Source: an uncultured Alphaproteobacteria bacterium (GTDB taxonomy: Bacteria > Pseudomonadota > Alphaproteobacteria > HIMB59 > GCA-002718135). From it: a stretch of DNA of 34,012 bases. Numbering within the stretch: the stretch's first letter is position 1; each line of letters starts with the position of its first letter. A program made the translations under genes and the position numbers. Below are positions 15,137 through 34,012 of the stretch, piece by piece. Below the pieces are notes generated by a model, which was not told the origin of the DNA, searched no databases, and saw only the letters and a program-made list of their open reading frames with translations. The stretch covers positions 1 to 34,012 of the forward strand of contig CACKQA010000004.1 of NCBI GenBank assembly GCA_902602135.1, written 5' to 3'.

Positions 15137-18100
15137 ATGAAGAAAATTGTCCTTTCACTTTTTCTAATTCTATCTAGTTCTCAATTATTTGCTTTTGATT
15201 TTAATACATTTCAGGAGGTTGATAAATGTATTAAATATTCTGAAGATCTTGAGCAATATAAAAAGAATTTTCAAAGCTGTTTAGACTCTAAAAATTTATC
15301 AATAGAAAATAATTTAACCCAATCTTTTAAAACAAAATTACCAAAGAATTTTCATGAAAGAGTTGATTTTGGCAAAAATGTAAATCAATTTATAGATAAA
15401 AAATATATCCCTAATAATCCTGAATTCACAATTGATGAATTTATCAAAAAATATCCAAATCATATTTTTACAATTGATAGTTTATTAAGAGGTAAAAATG
15501 CAATTATCAGTGATTATCAATTAAGAAAATTAGATCTTCTTCCAAAATTATTTTCAAATATTCAAACTATTGAAATAATTGAAAATAATAAAAGTGAAAA
15601 ACAGATCAAACAAGAAACAAATTTTGCTACTCTTTTAACTGGTTATTTTCTATACCTTGTTACTAGTGACGATGAGATACAATGTAATCAGAATGCTTCT
15701 CTTTCACAGACTTCTACATCAATTGATGAGAATTCATCAGATACTATCGATTTTACTATATCAGGTGCTCCTGCTGGTGTTACTTATAGTGTAAATACTA
15801 GTGGCACAGCTACAGAAGGAACTGATTATGAGAGTATAAGTGATATAACAATTAATAGCTCTACAACAACTTTTTCGTTAACTTTAATAGATGACTCAAT
15901 ATCAGATATAAATGAAACTGTTGATATTAGTCTTACACCAACTGGTGGAGATATTACATTTTGTAAAAATACTTTAAACTCTCAAACAATAACAATTGTA
16001 GATAATGAAGCAGCTCCAACTATTACATTGTCAGCTAGTGCATCTAGTATTGCTGAAAACGCTGGGTCATCAATTACTCTTACAGCAACGAGTTCCATAG
16101 TATCTGGTTCAGACATTACAGTGTCATTTGATACTTCCGGCACAGCAACGGAAGGAACTGATTATGGAACAATATCAGATATTACTATTTCAGCTGGCTC
16201 TACAACAGGCACAACAACATTCACACCCACTGATGATAGTATGTATGAAACATCTACAGATGAGACAGCAACTGTTGCTATTGGAACTGTATCAGGAGGA
16301 GGGGCAACAGAAAGCGGTTCTCAATCAGTAACATTAACGATTGAGGAAAATGATAGTGCACCGACAGTTACATTGGCTGCTAGTTCATCGAGTATTGCAG
16401 AGAATGCTGGCACTTCTATTACTTTAACAGCAACCTTATCAAACCCTACAAGTGCAGATGTAACTGTTTCAATTGGAACATCTGGAAGTGCAACAGAAGG
16501 AACAGATTACGGAACAATTTCTGATATTACTATTTCTTCTGGTGATACTACGGGAACAGCTTCATTTACTCCAACAGATGATAATTTATATGAAACAAGT
16601 ACTGATGAAACAGCAACAGTTTCTATTACCGGTGTCTCCGGTGGAAGTGCTACTGAAAGTGGATCTCAATCAGTAACACTAACAATTGAAGAGAATGAAA
16701 GTGCGCCAACTGTAACTCTAACAACGAGTGCAACAAATATTGATGAAAATTCTGGATCTTCATTAACTTTAACTGCAACGTTATCAGTTGCAACAACCGC
16801 TGATGTTACAGTTACTATTTCAACTTCAGGTAGTGCTACAGAAGGAACTGATTATACCGATGGAAGTGGAAATATCGATGATCTTGTTATTTCAGCTGGC
16901 AATACAACAGAGACAATTAGTTTTAAACCAACTGATGATAGTGTGTATGAAGGAGATGAAACAGCAACAATTTCTATTGATAGTGTTTCAGGTGGTGAAG
17001 CATCAGAAAATGGAACGCAAGCTGTTACCATTACAATAAACGAAAATGAATCTGCGCCAACAGTCACTCTTTCAGTTAGTGCATCTAGTATCGCAGAAAA
17101 TTCTGGGTCAACATTAACGATTACAGCTACATCATCCATTGTTGCAGATGAAAATATTACTGTTGGAATCTCCACCTCTGGTACTGCTACAGAAGGAACG
17201 GATTACGGAACAATTTCTGATATTACAATTACAGCTGGTAATACAACTGGAACAGCAACGTTTGATCCAACTGATGATAGTATTTCTGATGTAGCCGAAA
17301 CAGCCATTGTTGCCATAAGTAGTGTCTCAGGAGCTGATGCAACAGAGAGTGGATCACAATCAGTTACAATTACGATAAATGATAATGAAGCAACGCCAAC
17401 AGTTACATTAACTGTTAGTGCAACATCGATTGCAGAGAATGCAGGTTCATCATTAACTTTAACAGCAACGAGTTCAATTGTTTCAGGTTCAGACATTACA
17501 GTTACACTTAGTACAAGTGGTACAGCAACAGAGGGAACAGATTATGGATCTCTCTCTGATATTACCATTAGTGCTGGCTCTACAACAGGCACAACAACAT
17601 TCACACCCACTGATGATAGTATGTATGAAACATCTACAGATGAGACAGCAACTGTTGCTATTGATACAGTTAGTGGTGGTTCAGCAACAGAAAATGGAAC
17701 ACAGTCTGTTACCATTACAATAAACGAAAATGAATCTGCGCCAACAGTAACACTTGCAGCTAGTGCAACAAGTATTGCTGAGAACGCTGGATCATCAATT
17801 ACAATTACTGCATCATTAAGCGGAACAACAAGTCAAGATGTAACTGTTTCATTATCAAGTTCTAGCACGGCAACAGAAGGAACAGATTATGGAACTGTTT
17901 CGGATATAACTATTACTTCTGGATCAACGTCTGGAACAGCTACGTTTACACCAACAGATGATAGTATTTATGATGCAACGTCAAATGAAACAGCTATCCT
18001 TTCTATTAGTGGTGTTTCAGGTGGTGGAGCAACCGAAAGTGGTGATCAAAAAGTTACCATTACAATAACGGATAATGAAAGTGCGCCAACAGTTACTTTA

Positions 18101-21100
18101 AGTGTTAGCGCAACATCGATTGCAGAAAACGCAGGATCATCTCTCACATTAACAGCAACGTTATCAGGTGCAACATTCCAAGATGTTACCGTTGGTATTG
18201 ATACATCGGGAGGTGCAACAGAAGGAACAGACTATACGGATGGAAGTGGCGTCATTAATGACATTACTATTAGTGCAGGAAGCACATCAGGCACCGTTAA
18301 TTTCACACCAACAGATGATTCCGTTTACGAGGATGATGAAAGTGCAACAATTTCAATTGGTAGTGTGTCTGGTGGTGGTGCATCCGAGAGTGGAACACAA
18401 TCTGTTACAATAACAATTTCTGAAAATGAATCTGCCCCGACAGTTACTTTAAGTGTAAGTGCAACGTCTATTGCAGAGAATGCAGGATCATCTTTAACAA
18501 TTACTGCAACTCTATCTGGTGCAACAGATGAGAATGTTACAGTAGGAATAGATACAGCAGGTACAGCAACAGAGGGGACAGATTATACTGATGGTTCTGG
18601 TAATCTAGATGATATTACAATTTCAGCTGGATCAACAACAGGCACTGTTTCTTTTACACCTAGTGATGACTCAGGTGATCCTGTTTATGAAGAAAATGAA
18701 ACAGCTATTATTTCTATTGGATCTGTTTCTGGAGGTGGTGCAACAGAAAGTGGTTCGCAGTCAGTTACTATAACGATTACAGAAAATGAAAGTGCGCCTA
18801 CAGTTACTTTAACAAGAAGTGCTGCATCGATTGCTGAAAATTCAGGCTCTTCAGTTACTTTAACAGCGACTCTTTCTATTAAAGTCGATGAAGCGGTAAC
18901 AGTGTCTCTGAGTACAAGTGGTGCTGCAACAGAAGGAACGGACTATACAGATGGAAGTGGTAACTTAGATGACATAACTATATCTGCTGGTTCAACAACT
19001 GGCACGGTATCATTTACACCAACAGATGACAGCGTGTATGAAGGTGATGAAGCAGCTGTTATTGCTATTGATACAGTTTCTGGTGGTGGTGCAAGTGAAG
19101 ATGGAACACAATCTGTTACTGTTACTATTTCTGAAAATGAATCTGCACCAACTGTAACTCTCGCTGTTAGTGCAACAAGTATAGCTGAAAATTCAGGATC
19201 ATCTCTTACTTTAACTGCCACATTATCAAATGTTGCCGATGAAAATGTAACTGTATCTCTAAGTACAAGTGGTGCAGCAACCGAAGGTACGGATTATACG
19301 GATGGATCAGGCAATCTAGATGATATCACTATTACAGCTGGTTCAACAACAGGTACAGTAAGTTTCACACCAACCGATGATAGTGTGTATGAAGATGATG
19401 AAGCTGCTGTTATAGCGATTGATACGGTATCAGGTGCTGATGCAACAGAAAGTGGAACGCAATCAGTTACCGTTACGATTACAGAAAATGAAAGTGCACC
19501 AACAGTTACACTTGCGGTAAGTGCAACGTCAATAGCAGAGAATGCAGGATCATCTCTAACTTTAACTGCAACGTTATCTGGTGCAACTGATGAAACTGTA
19601 ACTGTAGCACTTGGAACTTCTGGAAGTGCAACAGAAGGAACGGACTATACCGATGGAAGTGGCAATGTTGATGACATAACCATTAGTGCTGGTAGCACTA
19701 CTGGAACAGTAAACTTTACACCAACTAATGACAGTGTGTATGAAGGTGATGAAACAGCAACAATTGCTATCACCGGTGTATCTGGAGGAGGAGCGAGTGA
19801 GAGTGGATCTCAATCTGTTACTATTACCATTTCAGAAGATGAAAGTGCACCAACTGTTACTTTAAGTGTTAGTGCAACAAGTATAGCAGAAAATGCTGGA
19901 TCATCATTAACATTAACGGCGACACTATCAGGAGCTGCTGATGAAGCTGTTATTGTTGCTTTATCAACGTCAGGTACATCAACAGAGGGAACCGATTACA
20001 CGGATGGATCAGGTAACATCGATGATATTACTATTAGTGCAGGTTCTACAACAGGGACGGTCAACTTTACACCAACTGATGATTCAGTTTATGAAGGAAA
20101 TGAAACAGCCATTGTTGCGATTAGTAGTGTCTCAGGTGCTGATGCTAGTGAAAGTGGATCACAATCTGTTACGATTACAATTACAGAAAATGAAAGTGCA
20201 CCAACAATTACATTAACAAGAAGTGCAGCATCAATTGATGAAAATTCTGGTTCGACTATCACATTAACGGCGACTATTTCTGGTGTAACAGATTCAGCTG
20301 TTACCGTCGCGCTTGATACGTCTGGTACCGCAACGGAGGGAACAGACTATGGAACAATTTCGGATATTACCATTAGTGCAGGTGCAACAACAGGTACAGC
20401 AACACTCGATCCAACAGATGATAATATTTATGAGGGTGATGAAACGGCAACCATTGATATTGCAAGTGTTTCAGGAAAATCTGGTGTTACTGAAAGTGGA
20501 ACACAACAAGTAAGTGTTACAATTGCAGAAAATGAGTCAGCGCCAACCGTCACACTTGCAACAAGTGCAACATCCATTGCAGAAAATGCTGGTACATCGT
20601 TAACACTAACTGCAACTCTATCTGTTGCAACAACCGCTGATGTTACTGTTGCTTTAAGCACAAGTGGTACCGCAACAGAGGGAACGGATTATACGGATGG
20701 TGCAGGAAATTTAGATGACATTGTTATTTCAGCTGGCTCAACAACAGGTACAGTAAGCTTTACACCTACAAATGATAGTTTGTATGATGCAGCATCAGAT
20801 GAAACTGCAACAATTGCTATAAGTGGTGTCTCGGGTGGAAGTGCTAGTGAGAGTGGATCGCAATCAGTAACAATTACAATAACAGATGATGATAGTGCAC
20901 CAACTGTTACATTAGCAGCATCATCAACTAGTATTGCAGAAAATTCATCTTCAACTATTACGTTAACAGCGACACTATCAAATGCAACCTATCAAGATGT
21001 AACTGTTTCAATTGGAACATCTGGTACGGCAACAGAGGGAACGGATTATGGTAATATATCTGATATTACTATTAGTGCTGGTTCCACAACAGGAACGGCA

Positions 21101-24100
21101 ACTTTTGATCCAACCGATGACTCCGATGAAACAGATACTGTTACTGCAACGATTGCCATTAGTGGTGTCAGTGGTGGAGGTGCTACAGAGAGTGGTTCAC
21201 AATCTGTTACGATTAGTATTTTAGATGATGAAAGTGTTCCGCGTGTTACCTTAACTGTTAGTGCAACATCGATTGCAGAAAATGCTGGTACATCCTTAAC
21301 CTTAACGGCAACGCTATCTAAAACGGCATCAGAAGATGTTACCGTTACGCTTGGTACGTCTGGTGCTGCCACAGAAGGAACAGATTATGGATCTTTATCA
21401 AATATTACTGTTACTGCTGGAGCATTAACAGGAACTACGACTTTTACTCCAACAGATGATAGTATTTATGATGCAACATCAAATGAAACTGCAACGGTGT
21501 CTATTGATTCAGTTTCAGGAGGTGATGCATTAGAAAATGGAACTCAATCAGTAACAATTACTATTACCGATAATGAAAGTGCACCAACCGTAACTTTATC
21601 AAGAAGTGCTGCAGCTATAGATGAAAATTCTTCTAGCACAGTTACCATAACCGCAACGTTATCGAATGCAACGTATCAAGATGTTACTGTCAGTATTGGT
21701 GCATCGGGTGGAACAGAAGGAACAGACTATGCAACTATTTCTGATATTACGATTAGTGCAGGTAGCACAACAGGGACAACGTCTCTTGATCCAACTGATG
21801 ACTCGGTTTACGAAGATGATGAGGTAGTCACTGTTACAATTGATGGAGTCTCTGGTGGAAGTGCTAGTGAAAGTGGATCACAATCAGTTTCCATAACAAT
21901 TACAGAAAATGAATCTGCACCAACCGTAACTTTATCTGTTAGTGCAACATCGATTGCAGAAAACGCAGGAACATCCTTAACACTAACGGCAACTTTAAGT
22001 GGTGCAACAGATGAAACAGTAACTGTTGGAATTGATACAGGTGGCACTTCAACAGAAGGAACCGACTATACCGATGGAAGTGGTAATGTTGATGATATTA
22101 CCATTAGTGCTGGAAGTACAACAGGTACAGTCAACTTTACACCAACTGATGACTCTATTTATGAAGGAAATGAAACTGCGATTATTTCTATTGGATCAGT
22201 TTCAGGTGGTGGAGCATCAGAGAGTGGAACGCAATCCGTTACTATTACGATTACAGAAAATGAAAGTGCACCAACAGTTGCTTTAAGTGTTAGTGCAACT
22301 AGTATTGCAGAGAATTCCGGATCATCTCTTACTATTACAGCAACACTATCTGGAAAAGCAGATGAAGATGTAACTGTTACAATTGGAACAGGTGGAACAA
22401 GTACAGAGGGAACTGATTATACCGATGGAAGTGGAAATTTAAATGACATAACTATTTCTGCTAATTCAACAACTGGGACTGTTACATTTACTCCTACTGA
22501 CGATAGTGTGTATGAGGGAAGTGAAACAGCAATAGTTTCTATTGACGGCGTATCAGGAGCGGATGCAAGTGAAGACGGAACACAAGCTGTAACTATTACA
22601 ATAACGGATAATGAATCAGCACCAACTGTAACACTTGCTGTTAGTGCGACGAGTATTGCGGAGAATGCAGGATCATCTTTAACCTTAACGGCAACATTAA
22701 GTGGTGTAACAGATGCAGATATTACTGTTACTTTAGATACTGCTGGAACAGCAACTGAAGGAACAGATTATACCGATGGCTCGGGCAACATCGATGATAT
22801 TACTATTAGTGCTGGTGCAACAACAGGAACGGTATCGTTTACACCAACAGATGATAGTATTTATGATGCAACGTCAAATGAAACTGCAACCATATCAATT
22901 AATGGCGTTTCAGGAAAAACGGGTGTTGCTGAAAATAGTACACCGCAAGCAGTTACGATAACAATAACAGATAATGAATCAGCACCAACTGTTACTCTTA
23001 CTTCGAATTCTTATACAATGGCTGAAGATGCTGGTGGTTACCATGTAATAAGAGCATCATTATCAGGTGCAACTTATGAAGACGTAACAGTATCAATAGA
23101 TGGAACTGGAGGTACAGCAACAGAAGGAACAGATTTTGGAACGGTATCTGATATAACTATTAGTGCTGGAAATACATTAGGAACAACTACATTTACTGCA
23201 ATTGATGATAGTATTTATGAAGGAAATGAAACAGCAGGTATTTCTGTGTCTGGTGTGTCGGGTGGTGGAGCAAGTGAAAGCAGCCCTCAAGCTTTTAATA
23301 TTACAATTACAGAAAATGAAAGTGCACCAACAGTAACTTTAAGTACTAGTGGATCAAGTATAGCAGAGAATGCTGGATCATCTCTAACATTAACAGCAAC
23401 ATTATCAGTTGCAACTACTGCTGATGTTACAGTTGCATTATCAACTTCTGGAACAGCAACAGAAGGAACCGATTATACGGATGGAAGTGGAGCTATAGAT
23501 GACATCACCATTAGCGCTGGTAGTACAACAGGAACAGTTAACTTTACACCAACTAATGACAGTGTGTATGAAGGTGATGAAACTGCAACAATTGCTATTA
23601 GTAGTGTTTCGGGTGGAAGTGCAACAGAGAGTGGATCACAATCGGTTACGATTACAATTTCTGAAGATGAATCTGCGCCAACAGTCACTCTTTCAACAAG
23701 TGCAACATCCATTGCGGAGAATGCTGGATCATCTTTAACCATTACAGCAACCTTATCTACAGCTACGACTGCGGATGTAACCGTTACTATTGGAACAGCT
23801 GGTACCGCCACCGAAGGAACCGATTACACGGATGGTTCCGGTAATCTCGATGATATTACGATTAGTGCTGGTAGTACAACTGGTACCGTAAGTTTCACAC
23901 CTACAGATGATGCATCAGATCCTGTCTATGAAGAAAATGAAACAGCTATCATTTCAATTGATGGTGTCTCTGGGGGAAGTGCTAGTGAGAGTGGATCACA
24001 ATCGGTAACAATTACAATTACAGAAAATGAAAGTGCACCAACAGTAACATTAGCAAGAAGTGCTGCATCAATTGCTGAGAACTCTGGATCGTCAGTTACT

Positions 24101-27100
24101 TTAACGGCGACTCTTTCTATTAAAGTTGATGAAGCAGTAACAGTTGCCTTAAGTACAAGTGGTGCTGCAACAGAAGGTACTGATTACACTGATGGAAGTG
24201 GTAATTTAGATGATATTACAATTAGTGCAGGCAATACAACTGGTACAGTAAGTTTCACACCAACAGATGATTCTGTTTACGAGGATGATGAAGCTGCAAC
24301 AATTGCTATTGATACCGTATCTGGAGGAGGGGCAAGTGAGAGTGGTTCTCAATCTGTAACTGTAACAATAACAGAAAATGAATCAGAGCCAACAGTAACG
24401 CTTGCAGTAAGCGCAACATCGATTGCAGAGAATGCAGGAACATCATTAACATTAACAGCAACATTATCTGGTGCAACCGATCAAAATGTTACTGTTGTAT
24501 TAGGTACATCTGGTACAGCAACAGAAGGAACGGATTATACTGATGGCAGTGGCAATGTTGATGATATTACGATTAGTGCTGGTAGTACCACTGGTACTGT
24601 TTCGTTTACGCCAACTGATGATAGTGTCTATGAAGGAAATGAAACTGCTACAATTGCCATAAGTAGCGTTACCGGTGAAGCAAGTGAAAGTGGAACACAG
24701 GCAGTTACCATTACCATAACAGAAAATGAAAGTGCACCAACCGTAACTTTATCTGTTAGCGCAACATCCATTGCGGAAAATGCTGGAACATCTTTAACTT
24801 TAACAGCAACATTATCTGGTGCAACAGATGAAGCAGTAACTGTTGCTTTAAGTACAAGTGGTACAGCAACAGAGGGTACCGATTACACTGATGGTAGTGG
24901 ATCAATAGACGATATTACTATTAGTGCAGGAAGTACAACAGGTACAGTCAACTTCACACCAACTGATGATTCAGTTTATGAAGGAAGTGAAACAGCAACA
25001 ATTGCTATTAGTAGTGTTTCAGGTGGAAGTGCCACAGAGAGTGGATCACAATCGGTTACGATTACGATTACAGATAATGAAAGTGCGGGAAGTGTTACTT
25101 TAACTGTTAGTGCAACTTCTATTGCAGAGAATGCCGGTACTTCTCTTACTATAACTGCAACTCTCTCTAGTACAAGTGATGAAGATGTTACTGTTGCTCT
25201 ATCAACTTCTGGCACAGCAACTGAAGGAACCGATTACACGGATGGAAGTGGAGCAATAGATGATATTACAATTAGTGCCGGTGCAACAACTGGAACAGTT
25301 AACTTTACTCCAACAGATGATTCAGTTTATGAAGGAAATGAAACTGCTACGATTGCTATCAGTAGTGTCTCAGGTGGAGATGCATCAGAAAGTGGTGATC
25401 AATCAGTTACAGTCACAATAACAGAAAATGAAAGTGCACCAACAGTTACACTAAGTGTTAGTGCAACATCGATTGCAGAGAATGCTGGTACATCTATTAC
25501 CGTAACGGCAACACTATCTGGAGCGACAGATGAAGCAGTCACTGTTGCTTTAAGTACATCTGGAACAGCAACAGAAGGAACGGACTATACAGATGGAAGT
25601 GGTAATGTTGATGATATTACAATTAGTGCTGGTGCAACAACTGGAACAGTAAACTTTACACCAACTGATGACTCTATCTATGAAGGAAATGAAACTGCTA
25701 CTCTTGCTATTAGTGGTGTTTCGGGTGGAAGTGCTACAGAGAGTGGTTCACAATCAGAAACAATTACAATTACGGATAATGAATCAGCACCAACCGTCAC
25801 ACTTGCAACAAGCGCAACATCCATTGCAGAGAATGCTGGTACATCGTTAACACTAACTGCAACGTTATCAGTTGCAACAACAGCTGATGTCACTGTTGCT
25901 CTATCAACTTCTGGTACAGCAACTGAGGGAACAGATTATACCGATGGCAGTGGATCAATTGATGATATTGTAATTTCTGCTGGCTCGACAACAGGAACAG
26001 TTAGTTTTACTCCAACAGATGATAGTATCTATGATGCAACTTCAAATGAAACAGCAACAATAGATATAAGCGGTGTATCTGGAGGTAGTGCAACTGAAAG
26101 TGGAACACAAAATGTAACAATAACAATTACAGATAATGAAAGTGCTCCAACAGTTACATTATCGAAAGGCGCAGATACTATAGATGAAGATTCTTCTAGC
26201 ACTGTTACCATTACAGCAACTTTATCTGTAGCAACATTTCAAGATGTAACGGTTACTATTGATGGAACAGGGGGAACAGGTACGGAGGGAACAGACTTTG
26301 GAACAGTTTCTGATATAACGATAAGTGCAGGTGCTACAACAGGCACTGCAGCAGTAGATCCAACCGATGATTCTGTATATGAAGGAAATGAAACAGCAGG
26401 TATTTCAATTTCAGGAGTTTCAGGAGGTGGTGCTAGTGAAAGTGGTTCTCAATCTGTCACTGTAACAATCACTGAAGATGAATCTGCACCAACAGTTACT
26501 TTAACTGTCAGTGCAACATCTATTGCAGAAAATGCTGGTACATCCTTAACCTTAACAGCAACCTTATCACAAGCAGCAGATGAAGATGTTACTGTTGTTA
26601 TCGGTACATCAGGAACAGCAGTTGAAGGAACCGATTATACGGATGGAAGTGGAGCTATAGATGATATGACTATTAGCGCAGGATCTACATCAACGACTGC
26701 TAACTTTACACCTACAGATGATAGTATTTATGAAATAAATGAAACAGCAACAATTTCGATTAGTAGTGTATCAGGAGCAGATGCATCAATTTCTGGAGGT
26801 TCACAATCTGTAAGTATTACATTAACAAGTAATGAAAGTGCACCAACTGTAACTTTAACTGTAAGTGCTTCTTCAATTAATGAAAATGCTGGTTCATCAG
26901 TTACAATTACCGCAACACTTTCAGGCACAACCTATGAAAATGTAACCGTCGGACTTGGTTTTTCTGGTGCAACTGAAGGTACAGACTTTACAGATGGAAG
27001 CGGGAGTGTTGATGACATAACAATTAGTGCTGGTAATACAACTGGAACTGTCAACTTTACACCGGAAGATGATAGTGTTTACGAAGGAAATGAAACAGTA

Positions 27101-30100
27101 ACAGTTACCATAGATAGTGTTTTAAATGGTGGAGCAGTTGAAAGTGGATCACAATCTAAAACAATTCAAATAACCGATAATGAATCTGCACCAACCGTAA
27201 CGCTTGCAACAAGTGCAACATCTATTGCGGAGAATGCTGGTTCGTCTTTAACATTAACAGCAACATTATCTGGAGCAACTGATTCAGATATTACTGTTGC
27301 CCTTGATACATCAAGTTCAGCAACAGAAGGGACAGATTATGGAGCAGTTTCTGATATTACAATTAGTGCGGGTGCTACAACGGGAACAACAACTTTTACA
27401 CCAACAGATGACTCTATATATGATGCAACATCGAATGAGACAGCTACCATTGCAATTAATGGTGTGTCAGGAAAATCAGGTGTAAACGAAAATGGAGATC
27501 AGTCTGTAACAATTACGATAACAGATAATGAAAGTGCACCGACAGTTACTTTAACAGTTAGTGCAACGTCTATTGCAGAGAATGCAGGAACATCTTTAAC
27601 TTTAACTGCAACATTATCTAATGGTACATATCAAGATGTAACTGTCGCACTAAGTACATCTGGAACAGCTACAGAAGGAACTGATTATACAGATGGAAGT
27701 GGAGCTATAGATGATATGACTATTAGTGCAGGATCAACTACTACTACTGCTAATTTCACACCAACTAATGATTCAACTAATGAAGGAAATGAAACAGCAA
27801 CAATAGCTGTCAGTGGAGTCTCTGGAGGTAGTGCAAGTGAGAGTGGTTCTCAATCTGTAACAATAACTATTACCGATGATGATAATTTTAGTTTTTCAGT
27901 TGATGATGTTACTGTTGCTGAGAATGCAGGTAGTGCAACTATTACTGTAGATATGAGTAGTGCAAGTGTTTCTACAACTACGATACAATATGAAACATCA
28001 AATGGAACAGCAACAGCTGGACCAGACTATGGGGGAACAAGTGGAACTCTTAATTTTAGTGACGGAGATACTTCTGAAACATTTACGGTACTTATTACCA
28101 ATGACTCTGTTTACGAAGGTAATGAAACTTTTACAGTTACTCTAAGGAATGCGTCTGCAGGTTCTATAAGTGATAATGAAGCAACAGTAACAATTACTGA
28201 TGATGAATCTGCACCAACAGTATCGTTAAGCACCAGTGGTACAAGTGTTTATGATAATGGATCTAATATAACCTTAACCGCAACTTCAACACAAGAAGCG
28301 GATGAAGACATAACTGTTGTAATAGGAACAAGTGGTACAGCAACTGAAGGAACAGATTATGCAAATATTTCTGATATTACTATTAGCGCTGGAGCTACTT
28401 CAGGTACGGCAACATTTAATCCAACTGAAGATACAGTTAATGAAGGATCAGAGACTGCAACGATATCTATTTCAAGTGTTTCAGGAGCTGACTCATCAAC
28501 TTCAGGAACAACATCTGTTACCATCACGATAACAGAATATGCATTAAGAACTGCAACTGCATTTGCAGATAGTGGGTCAGACTCAGTAACAAGCTCTACA
28601 ATAGCCGCTGACCCTCAATACAGTAATGTTGATACAACAAATACAGGTACTACAGTTCATCCATATACTCAAATGAGAATAAATGAAGTCCATGCCATGA
28701 CAGATGGTTCAAATTATCTAACAGGTGTTGGACAAACAATTCATATTGCTGATTTTAACTGTAATGATAATCATAAAGTTTATGATAATAAAACTATATA
28801 TAACCTTGATGACGGTGGAGCAGGCGAAAGTACATTTGCTAATGATACACCAAATAATGGCGAATACCATTGCCAAGCAGTTGCTACAATGGCTGCAGGA
28901 GATAATCCGGCTAGTTATAATACAAATCTTATTACTGGAACTAATCTCATAGGTGGTGTTGCTCCTGATGCGGATTTAGTATTATCATCTATACCTAATT
29001 GTCTCGGTTCTTATTGTGCAGATGATTTTGCAAGAGATTTAGATAGTGCAAGAGGTTACAGTGCAGTAGCTTCTAATCAGAGCTGGACTGTTGGTGACAA
29101 AGTAGGTTTCTCCACTTGTGCTTCTGGAGACGCAAATTGCAATTACAATGCTACTGAATTTCAATCTACTATAAATACTTATAGTAGTTATTCAACTGAT
29201 CAATTACTAGGATTTTTATTAGAAGGTACTACTGCTGCTGTATCAGAAGCACAACAATATGTTACAGCTTTAGATAATTTTCAAAATAATGGCGTTGTTA
29301 TTTTTGCCGGTGGAAATTCCTCTTTTGAATCTGACGTTTCTGCAATTGCCGCTCTTCCACAATGGTATTCACAATTAGCTGAAGCATGGCTTGTAGTTAA
29401 TTTCGCAGATTTCAGTGGTACTGATATGTCAGGTATTACAGAATCTGAATTTACCATTTTAGGAAACCCATGTGGAACGGCAAAAGAGTATTGTCTCACA
29501 GTTGATGGTTATCAAGTAAATGTAAATACCTATTATGATGAAAGTACTGGGGCTTCAAATTATAAATTAGCTGATTCGGGCTCATCTTACGCAGCACCCA
29601 TGGTAGCTGGTGGTGTAGCTTTAATTAAACAAGCATTTCCTAATCATACTCCTGAACAAATTACAGATAGAATTCTAGCATCTGCCGATAATAGTTGGTT
29701 TACACCTGCAGGTAATACTACCTTCACAACACACGGAGCAAGTATTACACATGGTTATCATGCAACATGGGGTCACGGGCTACCTGATTTCATGGCAGCA
29801 ATGTCTCCAATAACTTCTAATTCTAATCCTGCTAGTATAACAACAAGTGGAAACTTAAATGATACAGCTCCCTTGGAAGGAACATCTGGTAGCTCTTCTT
29901 CACAAAATCCTGGAAGATATAGTATTGCTTCTTCATCAATATCACTCCCTGGTTTATTGGGAGATGCAATTAGTGAAGGACTTTCAAATGAAACTGGATA
30001 CTTCTATGATGGATTAAATGGTGGATTTAAATTTAATATGTCTTCTCTTCTAAATGATGAAAAGACAATTCAAAAACCACCGGCCTATAATATTAATAAA

Positions 30101-31024
30101 GATTTAGCTAAACTTGGTCAGATAAAAGATAGCACACAATTTGAAAGTGAATTTAATGCAGCTAACGCATTATCATATTCAACGGATGAAGAAAAAACCG
30201 CTTATATTACTTTAGAAGCACCAAATGCAGCAATACAAAAATTTGCCAGCTTTAATAATGGAAATAATTTTTATTTTGGACCTCAACGTAATCCGTTTGT
30301 TGGTAAAACAAATGGTCTTGGTGTGAACAGTGAATACACAATAGGAAATATAAAAGCAGTATTAGGTTATCACAACTCTCAATACAAAGGAGAGGAATTA
30401 GATAATGAATTAAAAACAGAAACTTTAGCTGCTTCCTTTGAATTAGATACAGATGAAAATACAAAAGTAGAATTCTTAATTGGTACGCTAGATGAAAAAG
30501 ATACATTCTTATTCTCAGAAGGAAAAGGAGCGTTAGGATATCGCAATGCAAATCCTAATTCTTTATTTACTGGTATGAATTTGGGGAAAAGAATTGATAA
30601 TTTATCTTTAAGTTTCTCTGGAACACTTGGTCAATCAAGAATGGATAATGCAAATCATAGTTTAATAGAAGGAACAACTAATGTTATTAGTTCAAGTTTA
30701 AATGCATCTGTTTCATTACATAATCTGCAAGGTAAACAAAACAAGTTATCATTCTCAGTTAGTCAGCCAAATAGAATTGAAAGTGGTGCTTTAAAAGTTC
30801 GTATTCCTGGATTAGCAGATGTTGATGGAAATATTCCTTATGCATATAAAGAAATAGATTTAGAAAGCTCAGGAAGACAATTAGATATGAGTATTAATTA
30901 TACTCAATCATTTAGTAATAATGTTGATATTGGAATTAATTTCAGTCAAATTAATGATTACAATCACGTTGAAGGAAATGATTCTGGTATTAGAATGAGT
31001 TTAACTGGCCAATATAAATGGTAA
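15137..31024 (+). CDS. Giant Calx-beta-repeat / S8 subtilase / autotransporter beta-barrel protein (5295 aa)
   Basis: Uninterrupted ORF; signal peptide MKKIVLSLFLILSSSQLFA; about 37 repeats APTVTLxVSATSIAENAGSSLTLTATLS...GTATEGTDY...TDDSVYEGNETATI...GSQSVTITITENES; subtilase motifs; C-terminal barrel ending SLTGQYKW. Confidence 0.93.
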   Translation: MKKIVLSLFLILSSSQLFAFDFNTFQEVDKCIKYSEDLEQYKKNFQSCLDSKNLSIENNLTQSFKTKLPKNFHERVDFGKNVNQFIDKKYIPNNPEFTIDEFIKKYPNHIFTIDSLLRGKNAIISDYQLRKLDLLPKLFSNIQTIEIIENNKSEKQIKQETNFATLLTGYFLYLVTSDDEIQCNQNASLSQTSTSIDENSSDTIDFTISGAPAGVTYSVNTSGTATEGTDYESISDITINSSTTTFSLTLIDDSISDINETVDISLTPTGGDITFCKNTLNSQTITIVDNEAAPTITLSASASSIAENAGSSITLTATSSIVSGSDITVSFDTSGTATEGTDYGTISDITISAGSTTGTTTFTPTDDSMYETSTDETATVAIGTVSGGGATESGSQSVTLTIEENDSAPTVTLAASSSSIAENAGTSITLTATLSNPTSADVTVSIGTSGSATEGTDYGTISDITISSGDTTGTASFTPTDDNLYETSTDETATVSITGVSGGSATESGSQSVTLTIEENESAPTVTLTTSATNIDENSGSSLTLTATLSVATTADVTVTISTSGSATEGTDYTDGSGNIDDLVISAGNTTETISFKPTDDSVYEGDETATISIDSVSGGEASENGTQAVTITINENESAPTVTLSVSASSIAENSGSTLTITATSSIVADENITVGISTSGTATEGTDYGTISDITITAGNTTGTATFDPTDDSISDVAETAIVAISSVSGADATESGSQSVTITINDNEATPTVTLTVSATSIAENAGSSLTLTATSSIVSGSDITVTLSTSGTATEGTDYGSLSDITISAGSTTGTTTFTPTDDSMYETSTDETATVAIDTVSGGSATENGTQSVTITINENESAPTVTLAASATSIAENAGSSITITASLSGTTSQDVTVSLSSSSTATEGTDYGTVSDITITSGSTSGTATFTPTDDSIYDATSNETAILSISGVSGGGATESGDQKVTITITDNESAPTVTLSVSATSIAENAGSSLTLTATLSGATFQDVTVGIDTSGGATEGTDYTDGSGVINDITISAGSTSGTVNFTPTDDSVYEDDESATISIGSVSGGGASESGTQSVTITISENESAPTVTLSVSATSIAENAGSSLTITATLSGATDENVTVGIDTAGTATEGTDYTDGSGNLDDITISAGSTTGTVSFTPSDDSGDPVYEENETAIISIGSVSGGGATESGSQSVTITITENESAPTVTLTRSAASIAENSGSSVTLTATLSIKVDEAVTVSLSTSGAATEGTDYTDGSGNLDDITISAGSTTGTVSFTPTDDSVYEGDEAAVIAIDTVSGGGASEDGTQSVTVTISENESAPTVTLAVSATSIAENSGSSLTLTATLSNVADENVTVSLSTSGAATEGTDYTDGSGNLDDITITAGSTTGTVSFTPTDDSVYEDDEAAVIAIDTVSGADATESGTQSVTVTITENESAPTVTLAVSATSIAENAGSSLTLTATLSGATDETVTVALGTSGSATEGTDYTDGSGNVDDITISAGSTTGTVNFTPTNDSVYEGDETATIAITGVSGGGASESGSQSVTITISEDESAPTVTLSVSATSIAENAGSSLTLTATLSGAADEAVIVALSTSGTSTEGTDYTDGSGNIDDITISAGSTTGTVNFTPTDDSVYEGNETAIVAISSVSGADASESGSQSVTITITENESAPTITLTRSAASIDENSGSTITLTATISGVTDSAVTVALDTSGTATEGTDYGTISDITISAGATTGTATLDPTDDNIYEGDETATIDIASVSGKSGVTESGTQQVSVTIAENESAPTVTLATSATSIAENAGTSLTLTATLSVATTADVTVALSTSGTATEGTDYTDGAGNLDDIVISAGSTTGTVSFTPTNDSLYDAASDETATIAISGVSGGSASESGSQSVTITITDDDSAPTVTLAASSTSIAENSSSTITLTATLSNATYQDVTVSIGTSGTATEGTDYGNISDITISAGSTTGTATFDPTDDSDETDTVTATIAISGVSGGGATESGSQSVTISILDDESVPRVTLTVSATSIAENAGTSLTLTATLSKTASEDVTVTLGTSGAATEGTDYGSLSNITVTAGALTGTTTFTPTDDSIYDATSNETATVSIDSVSGGDALENGTQSVTITITDNESAPTVTLSRSAAAIDENSSSTVTITATLSNATYQDVTVSIGASGGTEGTDYATISDITISAGSTTGTTSLDPTDDSVYEDDEVVTVTIDGVSGGSASESGSQSVSITITENESAPTVTLSVSATSIAENAGTSLTLTATLSGATDETVTVGIDTGGTSTEGTDYTDGSGNVDDITISAGSTTGTVNFTPTDDSIYEGNETAIISIGSVSGGGASESGTQSVTITITENESAPTVALSVSATSIAENSGSSLTITATLSGKADEDVTVTIGTGGTSTEGTDYTDGSGNLNDITISANSTTGTVTFTPTDDSVYEGSETAIVSIDGVSGADASEDGTQAVTITITDNESAPTVTLAVSATSIAENAGSSLTLTATLSGVTDADITVTLDTAGTATEGTDYTDGSGNIDDITISAGATTGTVSFTPTDDSIYDATSNETATISINGVSGKTGVAENSTPQAVTITITDNESAPTVTLTSNSYTMAEDAGGYHVIRASLSGATYEDVTVSIDGTGGTATEGTDFGTVSDITISAGNTLGTTTFTAIDDSIYEGNETAGISVSGVSGGGASESSPQAFNITITENESAPTVTLSTSGSSIAENAGSSLTLTATLSVATTADVTVALSTSGTATEGTDYTDGSGAIDDITISAGSTTGTVNFTPTNDSVYEGDETATIAISSVSGGSATESGSQSVTITISEDESAPTVTLSTSATSIAENAGSSLTITATLSTATTADVTVTIGTAGTATEGTDYTDGSGNLDDITISAGSTTGTVSFTPTDDASDPVYEENETAIISIDGVSGGSASESGSQSVTITITENESAPTVTLARSAASIAENSGSSVTLTATLSIKVDEAVTVALSTSGAATEGTDYTDGSGNLDDITISAGNTTGTVSFTPTDDSVYEDDEAATIAIDTVSGGGASESGSQSVTVTITENESEPTVTLAVSATSIAENAGTSLTLTATLSGATDQNVTVVLGTSGTATEGTDYTDGSGNVDDITISAGSTTGTVSFTPTDDSVYEGNETATIAISSVTGEASESGTQAVTITITENESAPTVTLSVSATSIAENAGTSLTLTATLSGATDEAVTVALSTSGTATEGTDYTDGSGSIDDITISAGSTTGTVNFTPTDDSVYEGSETATIAISSVSGGSATESGSQSVTITITDNESAGSVTLTVSATSIAENAGTSLTITATLSSTSDEDVTVALSTSGTATEGTDYTDGSGAIDDITISAGATTGTVNFTPTDDSVYEGNETATIAISSVSGGDASESGDQSVTVTITENESAPTVTLSVSATSIAENAGTSITVTATLSGATDEAVTVALSTSGTATEGTDYTDGSGNVDDITISAGATTGTVNFTPTDDSIYEGNETATLAISGVSGGSATESGSQSETITITDNESAPTVTLATSATSIAENAGTSLTLTATLSVATTADVTVALSTSGTATEGTDYTDGSGSIDDIVISAGSTTGTVSFTPTDDSIYDATSNETATIDISGVSGGSATESGTQNVTITITDNESAPTVTLSKGADTIDEDSSSTVTITATLSVATFQDVTVTIDGTGGTGTEGTDFGTVSDITISAGATTGTAAVDPTDDSVYEGNETAGISISGVSGGGASESGSQSVTVTITEDESAPTVTLTVSATSIAENAGTSLTLTATLSQAADEDVTVVIGTSGTAVEGTDYTDGSGAIDDMTISAGSTSTTANFTPTDDSIYEINETATISISSVSGADASISGGSQSVSITLTSNESAPTVTLTVSASSINENAGSSVTITATLSGTTYENVTVGLGFSGATEGTDFTDGSGSVDDITISAGNTTGTVNFTPEDDSVYEGNETVTVTIDSVLNGGAVESGSQSKTIQITDNESAPTVTLATSATSIAENAGSSLTLTATLSGATDSDITVALDTSSSATEGTDYGAVSDITISAGATTGTTTFTPTDDSIYDATSNETATIAINGVSGKSGVNENGDQSVTITITDNESAPTVTLTVSATSIAENAGTSLTLTATLSNGTYQDVTVALSTSGTATEGTDYTDGSGAIDDMTISAGSTTTTANFTPTNDSTNEGNETATIAVSGVSGGSASESGSQSVTITITDDDNFSFSVDDVTVAENAGSATITVDMSSASVSTTTIQYETSNGTATAGPDYGGTSGTLNFSDGDTSETFTVLITNDSVYEGNETFTVTLRNASAGSISDNEATVTITDDESAPTVSLSTSGTSVYDNGSNITLTATSTQEADEDITVVIGTSGTATEGTDYANISDITISAGATSGTATFNPTEDTVNEGSETATISISSVSGADSSTSGTTSVTITITEYALRTATAFADSGSDSVTSSTIAADPQYSNVDTTNTGTTVHPYTQMRINEVHAMTDGSNYLTGVGQTIHIADFNCNDNHKVYDNKTIYNLDDGGAGESTFANDTPNNGEYHCQAVATMAAGDNPASYNTNLITGTNLIGGVAPDADLVLSSIPNCLGSYCADDFARDLDSARGYSAVASNQSWTVGDKVGFSTCASGDANCNYNATEFQSTINTYSSYSTDQLLGFLLEGTTAAVSEAQQYVTALDNFQNNGVVIFAGGNSSFESDVSAIAALPQWYSQLAEAWLVVNFADFSGTDMSGITESEFTILGNPCGTAKEYCLTVDGYQVNVNTYYDESTGASNYKLADSGSSYAAPMVAGGVALIKQAFPNHTPEQITDRILASADNSWFTPAGNTTFTTHGASITHGYHATWGHGLPDFMAAMSPITSNSNPASITTSGNLNDTAPLEGTSGSSSSQNPGRYSIASSSISLPGLLGDAISEGLSNETGYFYDGLNGGFKFNMSSLLNDEKTIQKPPAYNINKDLAKLGQIKDSTQFESEFNAANALSYSTDEEKTAYITLEAPNAAIQKFASFNNGNNFYFGPQRNPFVGKTNGLGVNSEYTIGNIKAVLGYHNSQYKGEELDNELKTETLAASFELDTDENTKVEFLIGTLDEKDTFLFSEGKGALGYRNANPNSLFTGMNLGKRIDNLSLSFSGTLGQSRMDNANHSLIEGTTNVISSSLNASVSLHNLQGKQNKLSFSVSQPNRIESGALKVRIPGLADVDGNIPYAYKEIDLESSGRQLDMSINYTQSFSNNVDIGINFSQINDYNHVEGNDSGIRMSLTGQYKW
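15695..28539 (+). repeat. About 37 tandem Calx-beta-like repeats, about 347 nt (116 aa) each
   Basis: Counted by eye from the translation; unit boundaries at (E/D)SAPTVTL. Unit 36 (NFSFSVDDVTVAENAGSATITV...) is the most canonical Calx-beta. Confidence 0.9.
28640..29800 (+). other. Divergent subtilisin-like (S8) peptidase domain within the giant ORF
   Basis: Candidate triad D4539 (IHIADFNCND), H4578 (GEYHCQAVATMAAG), S4817 (GSSYAAPMVAGGVALIKQAFPNHTPEQITDRI); oxyanion Asn in VVIFAGGNS. Confidence 0.8.
30200..31021 (+). other. C-terminal autotransporter-type outer-membrane beta-barrel domain
   Basis: Alternating amphipathic strands; LSFSVSQPNRIESGALKVRIPG...EIDLESSGRQLDMSINYTQSF... resembles barrel C-termini of alphaproteobacterial S8 autotransporters; terminal aromatic W. 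Confidence 0.75.
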
Positions 31025-32153: not shown

Positions 32154-32888
32154 TTAGTTTTTTATATTGCTTAAAAGTAAATTTTTAAATTCTTCAACCG
32201 CAACTGTTGCTGGTTTATGAATTGCAAAATCAAATTGTTCTTGATTACTTGATGGTTCCAGATTTAATTCAACTGTTGGTTTACGCATATCTCTAAACAT
32301 CGTAACAAAACCAGCAGCAGGGTAGACTTGTCCAGAAGTACCTATTGAAACAAATAGACTAGATTGCTCTGCTAAATCATGAATTTCATCCATTTGCATT
32401 GGCATTTCACCAAACCACACAATATGAGGCCTCATCTGAGATCCACATTCAGGACATTTATGAGTCTCATTTAGGTCCCCTAACCAATCAAATACATGGT
32501 TTTCATTCATGATACATCTAGCTTTATTAAGTTCACCATGCATATGAATAATTGATGATGATCCTCCAATTTCATGTAAATTATCGATATTTTGTGTAAC
32601 TATATGAATTTTATATGTTTTTTCTAATTCATGTAGTAAAATATGGGCCCTATTTGGCTTTATTCCTGAATTCAGTTCTTTTCGACGTTTATTATAAAAA
32701 TCGTAGACAAGAGTAGGGTTTCTATAGAATCCTTCCGGACTAGCAACATCTTCAATCCTGTGATTATTCCATAATCCATCTGAGTCTCTAAATGTTTCAA
32801 TTCCAGACTCTTTACTTATACCAGCACCCGTTAATACAAAGATCTGGGAATCAGCTGAAATCTGCGGTAATTGTTCCATTTCATACAC
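32154..32888 (-). CDS. cobB: CobB-type NAD-dependent protein deacylase (sirtuin)
   Basis: VLTGAGISKESGIETFRDSDGLW, TQNIDNLHEIGG, MHGEL, CPECGSQMRPHIVWFGEMPMQMDEI, SIGTSGQVYPAAGF, ELNLEPS. Confidence 0.93.
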   Translation of the reverse strand: MYEMEQLPQISADSQIFVLTGAGISKESGIETFRDSDGLWNNHRIEDVASPEGFYRNPTLVYDFYNKRRKELNSGIKPNRAHILLHELEKTYKIHIVTQNIDNLHEIGGSSSIIHMHGELNKARCIMNENHVFDWLGDLNETHKCPECGSQMRPHIVWFGEMPMQMDEIHDLAEQSSLFVSIGTSGQVYPAAGFVTMFRDMRKPTVELNLEPSSNQEQFDFAIHKPATVAVEEFKNLLLSNIKN

Positions 32889-33037: not shown

Positions 33038-34012
33038 ATGGTTAAAATATCACTAAATGAAAACGTAAGTAAACTAAAGGAAAAATCCAAAGCTAAAAAC
33101 ACTCAGGATAAGTATCAGGGAGATTGGTTAAAGTTTATAGATTATTGCAAAAATAAATACAATTGCAGTCCTTTAGATGTTGATGATCTAGATAGCGCTT
33201 ACGCATTAACAGCTAATTATATGGATTGGCTACATGAAGATCCAGAAGCGAAAATACTCAAAGGATCGAGCAACATACCGGGTAGAGAAAATGTAAATAA
33301 CAACCCCTACTCCTCTACTGCCTATAAAGCTTCCACTATACAAAGAATCTTAGCATCTATTACATATAAATATAGAGTTAACGGATTTCAATTTGATAGA
33401 AAAAATCCAAATATTTCTGAAACAATTAGTGCAATTGTAAGAGATGAAAAAAATAATAAATCTGGTCAAGCAAGAGAGTTGTTAAAAGCAGATATTGAAA
33501 AAATTATTGATAAAATTCCAAATGATAACGAAGATTTTAGAAACATAAGAGATAGAGCTCTTATTTTAATTGGTTTTTATAGTTTTTGTAGAAGATCTGA
33601 GCTTTTAGGCATGAAATACGAACATCTAAATTTTGAAGAAGATGGTGTTCAAGTATTAATACCTTTTTCTAAGACTGATCAAAAAGGTGAAGGAAGAATG
33701 ATCTATTTACCTAAAAATAATTCACCCTATTGTCCCGTATCTGCTTTAAAGAATTGGTTAGGGGTAGCACTAATTGATTCAGGTCCACTCTTTTATAAAA
33801 TTAACAAAGCTAATAATATAGAAAAATATATTCTTAATAATAAGAATCAAAAAGTAAGTTTGACTGACACAAGTTTTGTTTTAATTTTAAAGAAAAGAGC
33901 TGAGGACGCAGGTATAGAAAATTGTGATAAAATTTCTGGTCACAGCTTAAGAATAGGTTCGATTACTCAGGCTAGAATGAATGGAGTGCCTACTCATGAA
34001 ATTATGGCTCAA
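33038..34012 (+). CDS. Tyrosine recombinase / phage-type integrase, truncated by the window end
   Basis: My translation from the ATG at 33038 is open for 325 codons: ...RDRALILIGFYSFCRRSELLGMKYEHL...KTDQKGEGRMIYLP...ISGHSLRIGSITQARMNGVPTHEIMAQ; catalytic R (CRRSELL) and HxLR (HSLRIG). Absent from the ORF track because it has no stop. Confidence 0.92.
   Translation, partial: MVKISLNENVSKLKEKSKAKNTQDKYQGDWLKFIDYCKNKYNCSPLDVDDLDSAYALTANYMDWLHEDPEAKILKGSSNIPGRENVNNNPYSSTAYKASTIQRILASITYKYRVNGFQFDRKNPNISETISAIVRDEKNNKSGQARELLKADIEKIIDKIPNDNEDFRNIRDRALILIGFYSFCRRSELLGMKYEHLNFEEDGVQVLIPFSKTDQKGEGRMIYLPKNNSPYCPVSALKNWLGVALIDSGPLFYKINKANNIEKYILNNKNQKVSLTDTSFVLILKKRAEDAGIENCDKISGHSLRIGSITQARMNGVPTHEIMAQ

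Follow-up and report, generated by a model that had tools for sequence, protein, structure and literature searches.

Large bacterial surface proteins built of repeats are usually discussed in terms of their variable length, and in the higher-order repeats of satellite DNA a block of several units is the unit of duplication. Periscope proteins consist of near-identical repeats whose number varies (PMC9704523). BapP of Pseudoalteromonas tunicata, a protein of 1600 aa with 7 Calx-beta-like repeats, is probably exported by type I secretion (PMC12153261). A literature search found no paper that joins Calx-beta and SAR86.

The window, which is the whole stretch of 34,012 nucleotides analysed here, contains one open reading frame of 5295 codons (15137..31024; + strand, as are all features below unless stated). 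A signal peptide, recognized by eye, and an N-terminal domain are followed by 37 Calx-beta-type units, an S8 protease domain, and a C-terminal beta-rich domain. As in Calx-beta adhesins such as BapP, the units stand in a row, have acidic positions suited to calcium binding, and are preceded by an N-terminal signal peptide; unlike BapP, the protein carries as many as 37 of them, and it continues into an S8 protease and ends in a barrel-like domain. It resembles the periscope proteins as a predicted long surface stalk of tandem folded domains, but its units are only about 68% identical at the nucleotide level, and units 2-31 are constant in five genomes. Thus, the variation in repeat number that characterizes periscope proteins is absent from units 2-31, although beyond unit 31 the arrays are not constant. 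Unlike satellite higher-order repeats, the array holds at most one old, eroded block, and it lies inside a protein-coding gene.

Results and discussion

The N-terminal domain (15137..15676, 180 aa) has no match among the Pfam or NCBIfam families. Its amino acid identity is 85-91% to three congeners and about 35-36% to AG-337-K21 (G126). The array, in which a unit profile search finds 37 units, extends over 15677..28540. The Calx-beta profile (PF03160) matches at 35 places in the array with E <= 1e-3, 28 of them above the curated cut-off, with a best value of 6.5e-24, and unit 36 (27881-28207) is the canonical Calx-beta unit. Ten unit columns are more than 80% acidic, seven of these 97-100%, and, as sequence columns only, they are candidate calcium ligands. 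A PDB sequence search with two units as queries gave no match. The subtilase (Peptidase_S8) domain follows at 28730..29695 (PF00082, E 1.3e-15), with the catalytic D/H/S motifs IADF, YHCQAVATMAAG, and GSSYAAPMVAGG readable by eye. The C-terminal domain (29900..31021) ends in YKW, with an aromatic last residue. The model shows 12 long strands in a barrel-like beta structure at a pLDDT of 60, which is low confidence. Among known structures it comes closest to outer-membrane barrels, EspP and EstA among them, with TM-scores of about 0.2-0.4.

The order of an S8 domain and then an outer-membrane barrel-like C-terminal domain is that of the subtilase autotransporters of the fusolisin type (NF033865). 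Unlike those proteins, the array protein has a 37-unit stalk ahead of the protease; its match to NF033865 is far below the cut-off, and a Pfam search found no autotransporter domain in it. Proteins from the same order with the same two C-terminal domains, 31-35% identical, occur without the array (L011-L015, 814-1070 aa); these are far too short to contain it, and three of those read have at their N-terminus a lipoprotein-like signal followed by glycines. The array protein does not fit an RTX or LapA-type adhesin secreted by the type I route, since no RTX repeats were found in it; its C-terminus consists of the S8 and barrel-like domains, and the LapA domain match on the last unit is below the cut-off. 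We infer that the gene product is a giant cell-surface protein, exported and located at the surface. Judged from its domains, it likely functions as a calcium-stiffened stalk that presents the protease or mediates attachment.

Downstream of the array gene are a SIR2-family ORF (32154-32888, - strand) and a phage-integrase-family ORF (33038-34012, + strand) that runs off the contig. This downstream flank is 90.5% identical at the nucleotide level in G014, whereas on the upstream side the genomes have different flanks. The array gene may therefore mark the border of a flexible island. No tRNA that could be an island attachment site was found within the window.

In the preliminary description of this DNA, the units were read as a string of long-loop (L) and short-loop (S) types, and rare markers were reported to recur 15 units apart. 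The string was recovered letter for letter over the 37 units on recomputation, and the markers are as exclusive as claimed. TCTTTCTATTAAAGT occurs exclusively at 18871 and 24112, a spacing of 5,241 bp, and CAACCGTCACACTTGCAACAAG exclusively at 20544 and 25791, a spacing of 5,247 bp. The DPVYEENETAIIS insertion is confined to units 9 and 24, and SIKVDEAVTV to units 10 and 25, so that units 9 and 10 (18431..19141) share both with units 24 and 25 (23672..24382). The markers of 9/24, 10/25, and 15/30 are found in this order in the arrays of all five species examined, save for changes in AG-337-K21, where units 24 and 25 are altered.

An excess of similarity at an offset of 15 units, which the preliminary description had predicted, is found in the window both by the unit identity matrix and by self-alignment. 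Among offsets 1-25, offset 15 has the highest mean nucleotide identity, 0.699, compared with 0.676 for shuffled orders (sd 0.007, z 3.1). In the self-alignment, the 15-unit diagonal is the highest, at 71.9% over 6.7 kb, while other long diagonals are at about 68-70%. When unit means and the L/S class effect were removed, with shuffles within class and the maximum taken over offsets, the residual test for the window gave P = 0.002, or P = 0.020 without the window's replaced units. Offsets 4, 8, 10, and 13 are, as means, weaker or not significant. Hence, the offset-15 excess in the window is real, but it is small.

The excess is unevenly distributed. The pairs 10/25 and 15/30 have large residuals and 8/23 and 9/24 smaller ones, while most other pairs have residuals close to zero; in the comparison of units 8-15 with 23-30, it comes mainly from 10/25 and 15/30. 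Unit 15 (20537..20893) and unit 30 (25784..26140) are the most similar pair in the array, with 82.4% nucleotide identity, and are sisters in the unit tree with a support of 98. Beyond unit 30, the strongest pairs are 18/31 (offset 13; 21578..21913 and 26141..26482, sisters with a support of 97) and 21/33 (offset 12), which is seen in the other genomes. Paired units are mostly 70-82% identical, so the copies at offset 15 are old, and a duplication event, if there was any, would be ancient.

A gapped unit alignment joins 8/23, 9/24, 10/25, 15/30, 18/31, and 21/33 in a collinear chain, with P = 0.007-0.03 on the all-species nucleotide or amino acid matrices and P = 0.05-0.10 on the five-species consensus. 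The chain and the sliding of the partners point to a block of about units 8-22 (18080..23320, limits uncertain) copied onto units 23-34 (23321..27532), a second copy that is shorter by about three units, which would have been lost. The ordered markers shared by 9/24, 10/25, and 15/30 are most simply explained by a duplication of several units at once. The evidence for an old copy of about units 8-22 onto 23-34 is nevertheless suggestive only.

The strongest rival has no block copy at all. Scattered copying of single units or of a few units would have made the array, and the likeness at offset 15 would come from gene conversion and chance in a few pairs. The excess is limited to about four pairs, the only ones in which the five-species consensus shows it, and the consensus tests fail correction (P = 0.31 for ungapped offset 15). 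There are also strong unit pairs at other offsets, where 19/27, 12/23, 27/29, 13/27, 2/6, and 22/31 are closer; 2/6 has a support of 99 in the unit tree. Furthermore, conversion at offset 15 can be seen directly. A patch was scored when two units of the same genome share a nearly identical stretch in which one of the two is unlike the corresponding units of other genomes. This definition yields 30 patches. Five of them lie at offset 15, against an expectation of about one from pair counts; in distinct unit pairs, this is 4/27 at P = 0.012. The clearest is a run of 196 identical bases in units 9 and 24 of G121, in the direction 9<-24, and further patches at offset 15 include 13->28 in G014 and 15/30 in G028. 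Because similar units convert more easily, this excess of patches is no proof that an offset of 15 is special, and some of the patches could be assembly errors. In the window genome, a stretch of 91 bp in unit 2 (16193..16283) that is identical to unit 6 (17573..17663) is a recent conversion. Part of the offset-15 likeness is thus due to later gene conversion, and the likeness of 9/24 and 10/25 could be the product of conversion alone. However, the ordered markers lie in adjacent units, 9-10 and 24-25, of every array, with the alterations in AG-337-K21 given above, and collinearity holds for the strongest of the ancestral pairs. For these reasons, we consider an origin without a block copy unlikely, though by no means negligible.

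The version in the preliminary description amounts to a clean tandem copy, 15 units and 5.24 kb long, of units 1-15 onto units 16-30. Of this version, the excess at offset 15 and the ordered markers stand, but the limits and the coherence of the copy do not, and its date would be older. Both the L/S string and the spacing of the markers speak for it, as does the best ungapped run at offset 15, which extends from unit 5 (nucleotide) or 3 (amino acid) to unit 18 or 19. The L/S agreement at offset 15, however, is 15/22, with P = 0.039 alone but 0.38 after correction over offsets 5-22; a consistent excess is missing from the pairs 1/16 to 7/22, and past unit 30 the partners shift to offsets 13 and 12. 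The synonymous signal is weak as well, with a maximum-over-offset P of 0.32 for the excess at synonymous codons in the window, and no test on synonymous sites only or on third positions was significant at any offset after correction. With the excess in so few pairs, we regard a coherent copy of 1-15 onto 16-30 as quite improbable.

The same weakness could suggest functional convergence, in which selection rather than copying gives the same loop type or face at matching heights of the stalk, and in the window the amino acid signal (z 3.7) does exceed the synonymous signal (z 2.2). This explanation is, in our view, more doubtful still than the clean copy, since the likeness of 15/30 extends to synonymous sites and to the serine codon class, where it is high too, and the shared odd insertions are hard to explain by convergence. 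Least probable of all is an artefact of short-read assembly, with units wrongly joined or copied: at least two of the genomes carry single-cell isolate names and the longest exact paralogous repeats are 91-196 bp, but the unit order agrees among five genomes. In addition, the isolate names seem to be those of GORG-Tropics single-cell assemblies, for which about 1.5 misassemblies per 100 kb are reported (PMC11247762).

Relatives of the array were found in four further genomes. With the C-terminal part as the query, G014 (AG-426-J11; 82% aa) and AG-337-K21 (G126, which corresponds to G199) were retrieved, and with the N-terminal domain, G121 and G028. AG-337-K21 belongs to a different family of the same order; the other three are congeners of the window, and with the window the five arrays represent five species. 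The array is present in 4/102 genomes of the genus and 5/162 of the order, many of which are incomplete, and no relatives of it were found in viral contigs.

Up to and including unit 31, all five arrays have an identical order of units, almost all of which are also equal in length. For units 2-31 (16010..26482), the closest unit of another genome bears the same number in 556/600 comparisons, compared with 31/80 for units 32-35, and 24/34 units are monophyletic across species in the unit tree. The growth by single-unit slippage that had been suggested has left no sign in the five species sampled, in which the number and order of units 2-31 are the same. Synonymous codons approach saturation in some units of the same number (0.50 for unit 13 of the window and G014), which indicates that the unit order has long been maintained.

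Outside this fixed part, units 32-34 of the window (26483..27532) have been replaced or rearranged when set against the other genomes. From unit 36 onward, the window has a single canonical unit, compared with several in G028 and in G126. Unit 27 (24731..25081) has 117 aa and is ordinary in the window; in the four others it has 127-128 aa and an unlike first half. In G121 (L022), the S8 domain after unit 37 is unlike that of the window, as if it had been exchanged as a cassette. Many units of G014 (L016) and G121 have the variants PTND, S[DN][TN][TS]IAEN, and EDE endings, as if these had spread through the units in that lineage, while the other three genomes have mostly PTDD, SATSIAEN, and ENE.

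The arrays are more alike than the genomes that carry them. The core proteins of G126 are distant, with amino acid identities of about 54% for IF-2, 64% for LepA, and 82-84% for EF-Tu, and its barrel domain is 66% identical to that of the window (0.71-0.72 in nucleotides to the window or G014), whereas its array units have median nucleotide identities of 0.84-0.90 to the genus. For G028 and G126, the median for the units is 0.900 and the core genes are at 0.65-0.77, where the core-gene controls are a handful and a different set for each genome pair. Near-identical tracts listed by a run finder include 1091 bp with 18 mismatches in units 33-37 of G028 and G126; 770 bp with 3 mismatches in units 2-5 of G014 and G028, whose conserved genes are 73-85% identical; and 1922 bp with 30 mismatches in units 9-15 of G014 and G121, whose conserved genes are 83-88% identical. 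Since the likeness of the arrays exceeds that of both the core genes and the protein's own ends, the simplest reading of this pattern is that segments of the array have been exchanged horizontally, in register, between species and families.

Conclusions

The explanation that we prefer, with a probability of about 0.6, is a joint one: a surface protein with an ancient copy of units 8-22 onto 23-34, in an array that is locked by its own divergence, exchanged in register, and marked by conversion patches. The stalk would have arisen long ago by repeated duplication, probably including this one multi-unit copy, and about three units were probably lost later from the second copy. The units would then have diverged to about 68% nucleotide identity, at which they would rarely recombine with each other, so that their number and order became locked. 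Units of the same number in different cells, which are mostly 80-100% identical, could still recombine. Short conversion patches, somewhat commoner between partners at offset 15, would keep the old signal visible. In tests with phage lambda, RecABCD recombination in E. coli was reduced about a hundredfold at 22% divergence (PMC2327257). A barrier of divergence within the array, together with permitted exchange between units of the same number, would account for the fixed order of the units as well as for their mosaic sequence.

An array that looks locked and exchanged is a more interesting finding than the block duplication. Tentatively, and at somewhat short of even odds, we propose that the divergence among its units holds an array of at least 30 units in strict register, and that the array passes from one bacterial family to another as an exchangeable cassette. 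If this is true, unit n pairs with unit n between cells, unequal exchange is kept down inside the array, and the result is a mosaic stalk of fixed length. In two families, 30 units of this protein of 5,000 residues stand in the same order although lineages appear to swap its sequence, which provides a natural test of the divergence at which repeats cease to slip. It also points to a surface stalk that moves between streamlined marine bacterial lineages independently of its own anchoring domains.
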